In this document: one piece after another, positions 12,329 through 19,795 of the stretch
How positions within the stretch are numbered: position 1 is the first letter of the stretch
Layout of the letters: each line of letters begins with the position of its first letter
IMG/VR virus record: IMGVR_UViG_3300038714_000222
Span: 1-20,145 of that record
DNA from: a virus
Strand: one strand, 5' to 3'
Length of the DNA: 20,145 nucleotides
The notes under the pieces: generated by a model
Database searches by the model: none
The model's input: the letters and a program-made list of their open reading frames with translations, nothing else
Told to the model about the DNA's origin: nothing
Translations under genes and position numbers: made by a program

Positions 12329-12558
12329 TATTTGGGTTTTTTAAAAAACTTATTCAACATTACATAGACAAATTAGTTGATTGGATGCGTATGGTTAAGT
12401 TTGATTTGGAATTAGAGAACGAAATAAAAAAATTTCACGATAGTTATTTAAAGGAAGTTGCAAAAGGTGAACCGAAGGTAATAGAAAAAGGTACATTTGG
12501 ACAGGATGATTGGTCTATTTCTATCGGGGATATAGATGACAAAGATACCAAAGATTGA
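12325..12558 (+). CDS. Small acidic-tailed hypothetical protein
   Basis: The protein has 77 residues. The start IFGFFKKLIQHYIDKLVDWM is amphipathic and may lie on a membrane. A charged helix (LELENEIKKFHDSYLKEVAK) and an acidic tail follow. It overlaps the zinc-ribbon gene by ATGA and the next gene by 23 bases. I do not recognise the family. Its place among late genes suggests a minor virion or assembly role, but nothing in the sequence proves it. Confidence 0.7.
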   Translation: MIFGFFKKLIQHYIDKLVDWMRMVKFDLELENEIKKFHDSYLKEVAKGEPKVIEKGTFGQDDWSISIGDIDDKDTKD

Positions 12559-13180
12559 AATAAAAGAGGTTTACGTTCCAAAAATACGTTTATGGGAAGT
12601 ACAACCACCAATATTAGATATTATTTATAAACCAGTTGTTGATATTCCAGGATGTGTTGATGCTCATAGAAATAATCTGACAGGACTTATAAATGAGGAT
12701 GAATTTGGTACTTATCAAGCCTGTGGTACGTTTAATATTCCTAGCTTTGAACCTCTTGAGTACAACCCTGCAAATTTTATATATACCGCACCAGCAGAGC
12801 AGGAAGAACAGCAACAAGAACAACTTCCGCAGCAAAAACCTCAGATACCACAAAAGAAAAAAGATGAAGAATTAAAAATAGATCCATGCCCTCCTAAAAA
12901 CCCACAATTTAGACCAGGAGATTACAGAAATGATAAGAGGATCGAAAGGTTGGTAAAATGGGAAAGATCCCCCTCAGATGGTATTACTTGTGTCGGAGTC
13001 TGGGAAAAAGTACCATTCAGAGAAAGCTTTATTGGTACACCTCAAGCACTCATTTCTACTGCTGTTATTGGTGTGGTTGCTGGTGGCTCTGCGCTTTTGG
13101 CTCCTGTAATAAAAAAGTTAATCTCTGAAATATTTAAAAAGATAAAAAAGAAACTGACAAAGAAAAAAGATAAGATATAA
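12536..13180 (+). CDS. Proline/glutamine-rich protein with C-terminal membrane anchor
   Basis: The protein has 214 residues in four parts. The N-terminal part (KEVYVPKIRLWEVQPPILDI, then DIPGCVDAHRNN) resembles a protein I have seen in cyanophages. A low-complexity section at about 85-110 is rich in Gln, Glu, Pro and Lys. The middle contains CPPKNPQFRPGDYRND and a short WERSP segment. A hydrophobic segment at about 168-190 (LISTAVIGVVAGGSALLAPV) is followed by a strongly lysine-rich tail. The span and basic end suggest a protein anchored in or crossing a membrane. A virion role is an inference. It is the last protein gene of the late operon, and a promoter for the following RNA lies in its last codons. 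Confidence 0.78.
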   Translation: MTKIPKIEIKEVYVPKIRLWEVQPPILDIIYKPVVDIPGCVDAHRNNLTGLINEDEFGTYQACGTFNIPSFEPLEYNPANFIYTAPAEQEEQQQEQLPQQKPQIPQKKKDEELKIDPCPPKNPQFRPGDYRNDKRIERLVKWERSPSDGITCVGVWEKVPFRESFIGTPQALISTAVIGVVAGGSALLAPVIKKLISEIFKKIKKKLTKKKDKI

Positions 13181-13181
13181 T
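13154..13181 (+). promoter_or_regulatory. Sigma70-type promoter for a putative small RNA
   Basis: The -35 box CTGACA (13154-13159) and a perfect -10 box TATAAT (13176-13181) are separated by 16 bases. They lie in the last codons and stop of the preceding gene. A start of transcription near 13188 would give an RNA ending at the terminator at 13377-13421. The AT-rich background raises the chance of random -10 boxes, but the pairing with a good -35 box and a downstream terminator is notable. Confidence 0.6.
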
Positions 13182-13187
13182 AAATAT

Positions 13188-13421
13188 TACAAGTCTATAA
13201 TTCGGTCACTTCACTAGGTTGATCTCCCCCAGACCTCTTAGTTGTGTCTTTTATAGACAAGGGGGTAACTTAGCAACCAGACCCATTATCAAGTTGTTGA
13301 CTCAACCTCTGCTCTGTTGGAGCGTCAGTTGCTTACTTAGCAAAAGTGTTTTGAGATTTCCTTTTGCTTATAAATTAGTAGGTAGACTAGTTGGAAGGGG
13401 TCTATCTACTTTTTTATTTTT
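13188..13421 (+). ncRNA. Putative structured small RNA with own promoter and terminator
   Basis: No convincing protein gene lies here. The region is bounded by a sigma70-like promoter and an intrinsic terminator, which predicts a transcript of about 230 nt. Possible helices are CCCCC 13226-13230 with GGGGG 13261-13265, TGTCT 13245-13249 with AGACA 13255-13259, AGCAAC 13272-13277 with GTTGCT 13328-13333, and AGCAAAAG 13339-13346 with CTTTTGCT 13361-13368. GTCTATA 13193-13199 could instead pair with TATAGAC 13252-13258. The 9-mer ACTTAGCAA occurs at 13268 and 13335. It matches no RNA family I can name, and it is not a tRNA or a recognisable tmRNA. It could also be an untranslated region of the late operon. 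Confidence 0.55.
13377..13421 (+). terminator. Strong rho-independent terminator
   Basis: The arms 13377-13387 (AGTAGGTAGAC) and 13400-13410 (GTCTATCTACT) form an 11-bp stem with one G-T pair and a 12-base loop, followed by a T-rich run with a single interruption. This should end both the late operon and the putative small RNA. On the minus strand the same hairpin lacks a good T-run, so it is probably one-way. Confidence 0.85.
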
Positions 13422-13467
13422 AAGGTAGAATGTTTATCCGTAGATAAGTTTAATACCCGTGACTTGT

Positions 13468-14088
13468 CTATTCTAATTTATGAGTGTGCGGTAATACCTG
13501 ATTCATCTTTTCAGTAACAATCACATCTTTGCATAAATCTGCGTACTTACTGCTTGGCAAAAATGATATGCCCCGAATTGCTAATTCTCCACAATTTTTT
13601 AGACGTGCGAGCTCGTAGTTGAGCCTTTCTTTAGATAGTATTTGACTTTGTATTTTTTCTTGGGTCGTGGCTGCTTTTAAACATTGATCTTGAAATCTTT
13701 GATCTAATGGAAAGGTAAAAGTTAATGCTGCACCAAAATTAATACCAAGACTATCTTTGTTATTACTGTAGTTTTCTTGATAATACAGAATATCTCCTGG
13801 GTTTATTAAATTACCATCTTCATCAACACTTGGATCGTACACTGGTGTCATGTATGTGTAATCAAATGGTCGTTTCTGATTAAAGGAAGTGGTGACAAAC
13901 GGGCTAAATGACATTTGTGGGCCTTGGCATCTAATACCGTTTCCATAATGATTTTCTATAGTATTTCCTTGTAAAACCTGTGTTGCAAAATTAGAGACAG
14001 ATCCACTAGCAGAAGCAGAGGGAGCAGCAGTGTTTGAGGTATTAGCAAACGCTGGACTCCCAAATAATAATCCTATTACTGCGAGAAT
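13468..14088 (-). CDS. Secreted protein with unusual start codon, last gene of a four-gene cassette
   Basis: The mature part is clear. A hydrophobic core and cleavage-like site (LAVIGLLFGSPAFA) lead into a Ser/Ala/Thr-rich stretch, then NHYGNGIRCQGPQMSFSPFV, a repeat-poor middle and a C-terminal helix (LSKERLNYELARLKNCGELA). Proteins of this shape occur in cyanophages and may be virion or surface proteins. No ATG, GTG or TTG lies just before the signal sequence. The chosen start is ATT at 14088, which gives 206 residues. ATA at 14076, overlapping the upstream stop, is the alternative. An ATG at 14247 is in frame but would add an arginine-rich stretch that is the shadow of the upstream gene. 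Confidence 0.7.
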   Translation of the reverse strand: MLAVIGLLFGSPAFANTSNTAAPSASASGSVSNFATQVLQGNTIENHYGNGIRCQGPQMSFSPFVTTSFNQKRPFDYTYMTPVYDPSVDEDGNLINPGDILYYQENYSNNKDSLGINFGAALTFTFPLDQRFQDQCLKAATTQEKIQSQILSKERLNYELARLKNCGELAIRGISFLPSSKYADLCKDVIVTEKMNQVLPHTHKLE

Positions 14089-14501
14089 ATTGTAGTTGTA
14101 TCTGTTACGCTTTGGCTTTCTATGGTTCTCGTTACGTCTGAAACTGATTCTAGACCAGGTGGTGTATAAACTTCTGTAAATTGAAAGGCATCTCCTGGAT
14201 TTGTTATTGACCAATTGGGTTTCTCTCCTAAATCTAAACCTGTCCATGTATAAGTTGTACCATTTATATTTTCAGTGACAGTTGCATTTGGAGCAGATAT
14301 AGTCGATCCATCATGGCTGACACCTGATCCTGTAACTGAATATGTATACCCAGAATTATAGTTTGATGTTCGTATAGATTCTGTAATGTTTGTGGTAGTT
14401 TCTGTTCGGCTACTAGAACTACCTTGTGTGAAGTTAGGCACAATAGGCACAGCGTAGACAGGGCTAGATATAAGAAAAACAAACGGAAGTGTCCTCCACA
14501 T
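14076..14501 (-). CDS. Secreted hypothetical protein of the minus-strand cassette
   Basis: The protein has 141 residues with a clear signal peptide (MWRTLPFVFLISSPVYA, cleavage after residue 17). The mature part begins VPIVPNFTQGSSSSRTETTT and is rich in Thr, Ser and Asn. Its middle block NYNSGYTYSVTGSG echoes the SYSISGSG block of the gene before it, and it ends QSVTDTTTIFSQ. It has no enzymatic motif. I recall similar proteins next to similar neighbours in cyanophages, where the function is unknown. The start shares one base with the preceding stop, and its own end overlaps the next gene's signal sequence. Confidence 0.82.
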   Translation of the reverse strand: MWRTLPFVFLISSPVYAVPIVPNFTQGSSSSRTETTTNITESIRTSNYNSGYTYSVTGSGVSHDGSTISAPNATVTENINGTTYTWTGLDLGEKPNWSITNPGDAFQFTEVYTPPGLESVSDVTRTIESQSVTDTTTIFSQ

Positions 14502-18492: not shown

Positions 18493-18700
18493 GATTAAAA
18501 AATTCTTTTAATAAGTTGTTTAAAAATTGGTTAGTAGAGAGATTGCTCGACTTGCAATGCTCTCTAACTTGAGCAGCTAATTCATCAGAAGTACGCACCC
18601 CTAAAACATTTCGATTAAGGTTTTTTTTCTGGGCTGCTCTTCTCTCTTCAAGTTGTTTCATAATTGCTTGTCCAGAGAAGTCTGCTTCTTCTGTAGTCAT
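18485..18700 (-). CDS. Ribbon-helix-helix (CopG/Arc-like) DNA-binding protein
   Basis: The protein has 71 residues. After a charged N-terminal helix (about 1-30), residues 32-69 have the ribbon-helix-helix pattern: a short strand VLGVRTSDELAAQVREHCKS, a turn, and a second helix NLSTNQFLNNLLKEFF. Such proteins bind DNA as dimers and often control their own operon. It overlaps the genes on both sides. A repeat-rich gap two genes upstream (19417-19459) is a natural place to look for its site, but that link is only an inference. Confidence 0.72.
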   Translation of the reverse strand: MTTEEADFSGQAIMKQLEERRAAQKKNLNRNVLGVRTSDELAAQVREHCKSSNLSTNQFLNNLLKEFFNHA

Positions 18701-19416
18701 AGTGTGTCATCTATTTTTGATATAGCATGACTTAAAAACTCACCATGTAAAGCAGTTGTAATATGTCTGGAAATCTTTGCATCTTTGATTCCAAACTTAT
18801 TTCTAAATGATTCAACAAGTTCTTTCATTTTATCAGGGTTTGATTTATCAAGACTTGCAAGTTGTTCAAGTAGTAATGTTCTTGCCTCTCTTGAAATAGG
18901 AGGATCAGTTTTTGCCTTTTCAGAAACAGGAGCTAATTCTTGATTAGGTTTTGTTGGAGTGTTAGCAGTACCAATTTTTGGAGGTGGAGGTGTTTGTTTA
19001 GCTTCATCAATTTCGATCTGTGCCCATAATTCATAAGCCAAACCAAATGTAAAACAAGCACAAGCACATAGACACCTACGATGAGAATTTTGAAAATGAA
19101 CAGACGAAATCTTATCTAAAGGAATAGGTCTGTTTGCATTGTCTGTAATCGCAAAAGGGAAAAGAGCAGTTTTGATACCTGTATCTATATTTTCAAAATA
19201 TCCCATAAGGAAACCAGTTCCATCAGGAGCTTTAAAAATATAAGATGATATTTCTTCTTCAACAGAAGATTTATCTAAACAGAACTGCCAACCAGGAGCG
19301 TGTTCTCTTAATATTTGTGCAGTTTTAGCCCATGCAACATAATCAAACTTCATCTTTTTATAGATGTCAGTAGTTTTAATTACACCAGCTAAATTGGGAA
19401 GGGTAGTAGTGGTCAT
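18697..19416 (-). CDS. Sak3/DUF1071-like single-strand annealing recombinase
   Basis: The protein has 239 residues. The N-terminal 130 residues follow the DUF1071/Sak3 pattern: KFDYVAWAKTAQILREHAPG at 23-42, a beta-rich centre with FPFAITDNANRPIPLD, and the helical block RRCLCACACFTFGLAYELWA at 113-132, which corresponds to the family's R-x-K-A-x-A-x-x-G-L block. A proline-rich linker and a helical C-terminal part follow. These phage proteins anneal complementary strands during recombination. The neighbouring nuclease, SSB-like protein and helicase fit. The similarity is judged by eye and the lysine of the usual block is not seen. Confidence 0.68.
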   Translation of the reverse strand: MTTTTLPNLAGVIKTTDIYKKMKFDYVAWAKTAQILREHAPGWQFCLDKSSVEEEISSYIFKAPDGTGFLMGYFENIDTGIKTALFPFAITDNANRPIPLDKISSVHFQNSHRRCLCACACFTFGLAYELWAQIEIDEAKQTPPPPKIGTANTPTKPNQELAPVSEKAKTDPPISREARTLLLEQLASLDKSNPDKMKELVESFRNKFGIKDAKISRHITTALHGEFLSHAISKIDDTL

Positions 19417-19459: not shown

Positions 19460-19795
19460 TTACTGCAAGGCTGATTGTAATAAAGTATTGAATTGTTCTG
19501 GTGTTAACACAACTCGCCATTCTCCTCCACGAAACCTAACCATGCTGGCAACGAAGTCTACACCTGCATTTTTTCTTTGTGTTTCTACTTCCCTGGGCTT
19601 TACTAAACAGGCTCGGCTTTTATCTTTGTAATCACAAACCTGCACTACACAATTTGGTATGCCATAAATATCTCCAACATCATCTGGTATCCCTGCTGCA
19701 AGATTTCTTTTGCATTCAAAACCAGTAACTTCTGTTAGAAGTTCTGCTGCTTCTCTTTCTGCCTTATCTCCTTTTCTTTTATTTGGATTAGTCAT
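19460..19795 (-). CDS. PD-(D/E)XK-like nuclease / phage Holliday junction resolvase family
   Basis: The protein has 111 residues and the layout of small phage resolvase-type nucleases: KRKGDKAEREAAELLTEVTG at 6-25, a GDIYGIP turn at 41-47, the strand VVQVCDYKD, then a helix with EVETQRKNAGVDF and FRGGEWRVVLTPEQF. Family members cut branched DNA. D42 is in the expected acidic place, but the usual E-x-K on the next strand reads QVC, with a lysine three residues on (DYK). The enzyme may therefore use shifted residues or be inactive. The ATGA overlap with the upstream gene sets the start. Confidence 0.68.
   Translation of the reverse strand: MTNPNKRKGDKAEREAAELLTEVTGFECKRNLAAGIPDDVGDIYGIPNCVVQVCDYKDKSRACLVKPREVETQRKNAGVDFVASMVRFRGGEWRVVLTPEQFNTLLQSALQ

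Follow-up and report, generated by a model that had tools for sequence, protein, structure and literature searches.

A putative small-RNA gene of exchangeable structured modules at the late-operon end of a likely Prochlorococcus siphovirus

The locus and its predicted features

The window, by which we mean the whole 20,145-nucleotide stretch analysed here (IMG/VR record IMGVR_UViG_3300038714_000222), is a 20-kb piece of a lambda-like siphovirus genome, with tail genes among its proteins. Its closest named relatives, judged by the gene that ends its late operon (gene A), are the Prochlorococcus siphophages P-HS2, MED4-184 and MED4-117; P-HS2 and MED4-117 encode a gene A homologue with 38% identity. 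In the reading we favour the window phage is itself a Prochlorococcus siphovirus, an assignment that we lean towards rather than regard as settled. The features that concern us lie where gene A converges on gene B:

12536–13180, plus strand: gene A (PHROG 570, function unknown), last gene of the late operon, with the promoter inside its final codons
13154–13181, plus strand: predicted promoter CTGACA-16 nt-TATAAT (CTGACA at 13154–13159, TATAAT at 13176–13181), within the 3' end of gene A
13188–13267, plus strand: module MA, stem 13193–13200/13251–13258 and pseudoknot of CCCCC (13226–13230) with GGGGG (13261–13265)
13272–13334, plus strand: module M2, a long interrupted hairpin with closing pair AGCAAC/GTTGCT; 86 bits by cmsearch
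13338–13369, plus strand: module M3, hairpin AGCAAAAG/CTTTTGCT, also seen in loci L056, L192 and L207
13377–13421, plus strand: module MT, an intrinsic terminator with conserved loop TTGGAAGGGG and compensatory changes in its stem; relatives in L040, L170, L181 and L201
13426–13431, plus strand: second −10-like box, TAGAAT, preceding M0, without a clear −35
13440–13471, plus strand: module M0, hairpin GTAGATAAGT/ACTTGTCTAT, loop including ACCCGT, overlapping the end of gene B
13468–14247, minus strand: gene B (PHROG 848/1755, function unknown), convergent with gene A

The initial annotation, made from sequence alone, had proposed a promoter, a stretch with no credible protein and a strong intrinsic terminator in that order at 13154–13421. 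The order held, and so did the terminator: MT has a 10-bp stem (13378–13387 with 13400–13409) followed by the U's of TTTTTTATTTTT at 13410–13421, and was missed by a terminator-finding tool only because its loop exceeds 8 nt. The proposed end at 13421 held in part, since the second −10-like box and hairpin M0 come after it and the feature truly ends at 13471; in many relatives an identical TAGAAT comes right after gene A and leads into M0. The sole open reading frame between promoter and terminator is one of 69 codons for amino acids with a TTG start (13219–13428), and the only repeat in the window array is a 12-nt imperfect direct repeat.

Taken by itself, the window does not make the case. 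CTGACA-16-TATAAT is the top sigma-70-like match in the half of the window that was scanned, agreeing at 11 of 12 positions, yet sites of this class are not enriched over shuffled sequence (36 observed against 39.9 expected), so the promoter call needs comparative evidence. The folding energy of the region is modest (z = −2.1 against shuffles). As neither observation alone goes beyond chance, the argument depends on relatives. The minus strand of 13181–13470 folds better than shuffles (z = −3.5), as would be expected if the hairpins also terminate transcription of gene B.

Database searches supported the statement that the RNA belongs to no family that can be named. There was no match to Rfam 15 at the gathering threshold in the window, only chance matches when 13100–13500 was searched with lax filters, and none in 20 relatives carrying other modules; the marginal matches (CrcZ, trypanosome LSU and Mnt IRES) were rejected as composition noise. 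BLAST of the modules against isolate phages and plasmids returned nothing except the promoter stretch in MH327490. The M2 pattern occurs in no cyanobacterium of an 84,980-species collection, which points to a phage-specific element. A host origin was considered and rejected: matches to the pattern in Pelagibacter all fall in one conserved coding sequence, probably ubiB by its translation, and are ascribed to chance. A weak match of the M2 model in a Synechococcus myovirus was likewise set aside, as it sits within a structural gene. ARAGORN found no tRNA or tmRNA in the window, Pfam and PHROGs scans revealed no integrase among the window genes tested, and PADLOC run on eight neighbouring proteins gave no convincing defence or toxin match, only one weak partial one.

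Modules are exchanged at the A/B junction

We retrieved 80 IMG/VR loci with gene A and 78 with gene B (individual loci are given L numbers). The junction between the two genes measures only about 34 nt in many relatives, corresponding to one hairpin, M0, as the sole module. In other relatives the position is filled by RNA-like sequence, 60 to 300 nt long, or by protein genes instead, and most relatives carry modules other than those of the window. The window junction matches its relatives piecewise, with positions 1–87 of the junction shared with one set, 85–153 with another and 197–249 with a third, while L056 has the same pieces in a different order. Because these pieces coincide with closed hairpins, we treat them as modules. 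The prediction of one RNA of about 230 nt thus held in part: the stretch is a patchwork of modules (MA, M2, M3 and MT, then M0) that are exchanged independently of one another, and a single novel 230-nt fold is ruled out, as the parts are inherited separately.

Module families were collected by pattern scans of the viral collection (M2, MA, M6, M5 and M4 motifs) and by profile searches across 358 sequences. They number about 20 and make up 190 distinct arrays, after resolution into clusters, with 97 different orders. Arrays hold 1 to 7 modules, none contains a reversed module, the spacer between modules has a median of 6 nt, no genes lie between modules and adjacent modules mostly come from different families. 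The M2 and M5 covariance models find the correct places with high scores. Weak cross-matches suggest a distant kinship of some families with M2.

The junction also receives protein accessory genes (L012, L038, L089, L165, L002 and L072), sometimes with RNA modules after them; the insert of L002 holds a gene that resembles an adenine methyltransferase by its sequence, and those of L012 and L165 are two-gene inserts. At the same site L040 (5630–6500) has a repetitive stretch of roughly 900 nt (GATTGATTTGAG.., GACGATTAAATC.TAGAGGTGTTAAAAAGG..) that does not appear to code for protein and lies ahead of protein genes, and similar stretches begin in L035 and L070. Elsewhere in the window, the early operon encodes a Sak-like single-strand annealing protein (18697–19416) and a RusA-like resolvase (19460–19795), which could conceivably aid patchwork exchange of modules, although this link is an inference.

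Helices are conserved by compensatory change

Paired positions were counted in three families. In M5, 99.2% of pair cells form, both sides have changed at 11 of 20 pairs, and 53 double-change cells are seen against 13.9 in shuffles. The corresponding figures are 97.8%, 14 of 19 pairs and 69 against 17.7 for M2, and 98.8%, 8 of 15 pairs and 47 against 13.2 for M4. These structures were derived from the same alignments, which biases the paired fraction upward; slid controls were only 20 to 65% paired. For MA the stem was checked by hand, RNAalifold on a MAFFT alignment having missed the true stem. Compensatory changes are present in L313, L344 and L149, and the CCCCC/GGGGG pseudoknot is altered on both sides in L313. 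Evidence of this kind spans M5, M2, M4 and MA; M3 has too few variants to provide it. The check for compensating base changes that the initial annotation had proposed is positive for the helices of M2, M4 and M5, and the pattern that it said would refute it, homologues conserving a reading frame but not the helices, is the opposite of what the homologues show. No reading frame is retained, since family members differ by 1–2 nt in length and modules are swapped outright; these length differences, together with the covarying stems, rule out a protein-coding reading of the 69-aa frame.

A −10 box tracks the modules

At the stop codon of gene A, 124 of the 139 distinct junctions with modules have a TANAAT box, as against 0 of the 16 without (Fisher p about 1e-13, without correction for phylogeny); in most of the exceptions listed, a similar box is displaced by a few bases. 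Measured across arrays, TANAAT lies within 22 nt upstream of the first module in 140 of 186, compared with 3.1% at random places. In L056, L037 and L171 several such units of −10 box and module stand in tandem within one array. The −35-like CTGACA doubles as coding sequence (Leu-Thr-Lys-Lys) and is retained in some module-less phages, so it is the −10 box, and not the −35, that tracks the RNA modules across relatives. A clear terminal U-tract is present in only 101 of 180 arrays.

These data bear on the idea that the modules are recombination sites acting as DNA, akin to the attC hairpins of integrons, rather than RNA genes. In its favour, the modules are inverted repeats swapped in tandem at one site and in one orientation. 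Against it, G-U pairs occur in the covarying stems of M5, M2 and M4, as RNA would predict, the −10 box follows the modules, no integrase turned up among the window genes tested and no genes lie between modules. We consider this explanation very unlikely.

Arrays occur in different phages and settings

Of the 190 arrays, 166 are located at the A/B junction of a single siphovirus group, and spread between lineages is accordingly supported by few contigs only. Two of these, L174 and L178, are T7-like podoviruses, and the capsid proteins of L178 and Prochlorococcus phage P-SCSP1 share 99.7% identity. Both carry a cassette of promoter and modules between the scaffold and capsid genes, ending in a U-tract, whereas P-SCSP1a has no insert there. 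A different podovirus setting is common to L199, L250, L252, L253 and L258; in L199, L252 and L253 the array carries a promoter of its own and runs antisense to the exonuclease gene. L252 matches P-SCSP2, relatives of MA are found in L252, L253 and L258, and L274 has a single M6 module adjoining the exonuclease gene without a clear promoter. The same cassettes are thus shared by two or more kinds of virus infecting one host genus and, as their genomic settings differ, the arrays are independent of any particular neighbour. Among cultured phages, P-HS2 (L244:3146–3273) and MED4-117 (L245), two of the nearest named relatives by gene A, have TTGACT..TAGAAT followed by a structured stretch with hairpin CCCTAA..TTAGGG at their own A/B junction, a candidate at the corresponding site.

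Two further observations concern these phages. A conserved antisense RNA candidate lies beside the exonuclease gene of T7-like cyanophages (L252, L199, L253, L373 and P-SCSP2, L372:1121–1252); it runs from AGCAAGGAGTGGTTACCTTG.. to ..GAGTGGTTCC.. with a U-tract, and is kept even where there is no module cassette. In the same siphovirus group as the window, M4 and M10 cores occur at the tips of larger terminator hairpins among early genes (L327:8870–8974, L353, L368, L339 and L316).

A simpler view holds that the modules are cis elements, hairpins at 3' ends that terminate transcription between convergent operons and shield the upstream mRNA from decay. Most arrays do follow the final gene of the late operon, U-tracts are present in MT and in many terminal modules, and the M4/M10 cores lie within early-operon terminator hairpins with no obvious promoter (for M4, no clear one in L327 or L353, for example). 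Several facts speak against it: 16 relatives manage without any hairpin at the A/B junction, a −10 box stands beside the first stem of arrays, the podovirus arrays are antisense to a neighbouring gene, and about 20 conserved internal architectures would be needless for a pure terminator. The antisense arrays and module-less relatives in particular make a purely cis role less likely, and we regard it as an unlikely account of the arrays, though it may apply to the early-operon copies.

Interpretation as a trans-acting small-RNA gene

With the modules, their helices, their exchange and their link to the −10 box shown, we favour, by a modest margin, the reading that the locus is a small-RNA gene of separately folding modules, exchanged as cassettes and acting in trans as a decoy or regulator. 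Transcription, its start and stop points and RNA stability are inferred, and the target is the least certain part. The earlier proposal of an autonomous phage small RNA is supported, in that a conserved promoter box and compensatory structure are both in hand, while transcription is inferred without RNA data.

On this favoured reading, host RNA polymerase would probably initiate near 13188, at the base of the first stem, using the promoter within the last codons of gene A, read through MA, M2 and M3, and stop at MT (about 13421) to give an RNA of about 234 nt. A 5' end close to a stem and a 3' terminator hairpin would be predicted to make it stable. M0 may give a second short RNA, and the AU-rich linkers may be cleaved, freeing single modules. 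Conserved loops on freely changing stems would bind host or phage RNA or protein in trans, and cassette exchange would alter the repertoire of modules. Binding of a partner in trans is suggested because loops stay constant while stems vary freely: the loop GCUAACACUC is common to the otherwise unlike M4 and M10. A role as effectors against the host or rival phages would fit the fast swapping of cassettes at a site where relatives hold protein accessory genes.

How such RNAs might act can be framed in two ways. They may be base-pairing small RNAs in which segments that are conserved and left unpaired anneal to specific mRNAs of host or phage. Loops such as GCUAACACUC support this possibility, and against it several modules conserve the internal loops of long hairpins more than open seeds. 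Alternatively, as a special case of the favoured reading, they may be decoys for a host nuclease or defence. Fast cassette turnover where L002, L012 and L165 carry protein genes is consistent with this, and a podovirus of MED4 reportedly increases RNase E in its host in the course of infection (PMC9692554); on the other side, there is no homology to known decoys and no defence gene among the eight tested neighbours. We regard the decoy model as tentative and clearly less likely than not. The present evidence does not distinguish decoy from base-pairing modes, and base pairing too we rate as less likely than not; nor does it separate the options of regulator, decoy and structural RNA, the first and last of which were offered at the outset.

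Comparison with known systems

The structured or antisense RNAs described in phages of marine picocyanobacteria (CfrI, PhotoRC-II, wcaG, manA, glnA and abiF; PMC9964418, PMC9602691, PMC2864571) are the closest in kind, but these are single elements, mostly UTR-linked, and none is a multi-module array. Type III toxin–antitoxin ToxI, and the pseudo-ToxI decoy of phages, consist of tandem small pseudoknotted or hairpin RNA units, and the resemblance lies in such units being carried by a phage. ToxI, however, has near-identical repeats with a toxin gene, whereas here adjacent modules are mostly unlike and the eight tested neighbours gave no convincing toxin or defence match. RNA anti-CRISPRs, lone CRISPR-repeat units of phages that are believed to work in trans, are likewise short phage RNAs with their own promoter, while the arrays here lack a CRISPR-like repeat, use many folds and run to as many as seven modules. 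Integron cassette arrays resemble the locus in that their units can be exchanged and all face one way at a single site, but our units are RNA hairpins without genes, and the window genes tested yielded no integrase. Phage tRNA clusters and the T4 stable RNAs C and D are clusters of stable small RNAs, similar in their clustering; the present locus has no tRNA by ARAGORN and its folds are not cloverleaves.

Phage small RNAs have been known as individual cases. Mix-and-match structured RNA modules common to unrelated phages of one host are in neither Rfam nor the open-licence papers searched; no published description of module arrays was found in that literature, so an earlier account elsewhere cannot be excluded. 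A bolder reading, which we offer as speculation that may well not hold, is that Prochlorococcus phages draw on a common accessory pool made of RNA alone. It would comprise about 20 families or more, strung together combinatorially under promoters that the phages carry; siphoviruses and T7-like podoviruses would trade its modules both within each group and across the two, and use them as RNA effectors to counter host nucleases or defences. The genome of Prochlorococcus is streamlined and its known phage-resistance systems are few, and the binding partners of the module RNAs would reveal how such phages control this host. With cultured P-HS2 and MED4-117 carrying a same-site candidate, and MED4 available as host, the system is experimentally testable now. 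If true, the bolder reading would make these arrays an RNA counterpart of protein anti-defence islands.
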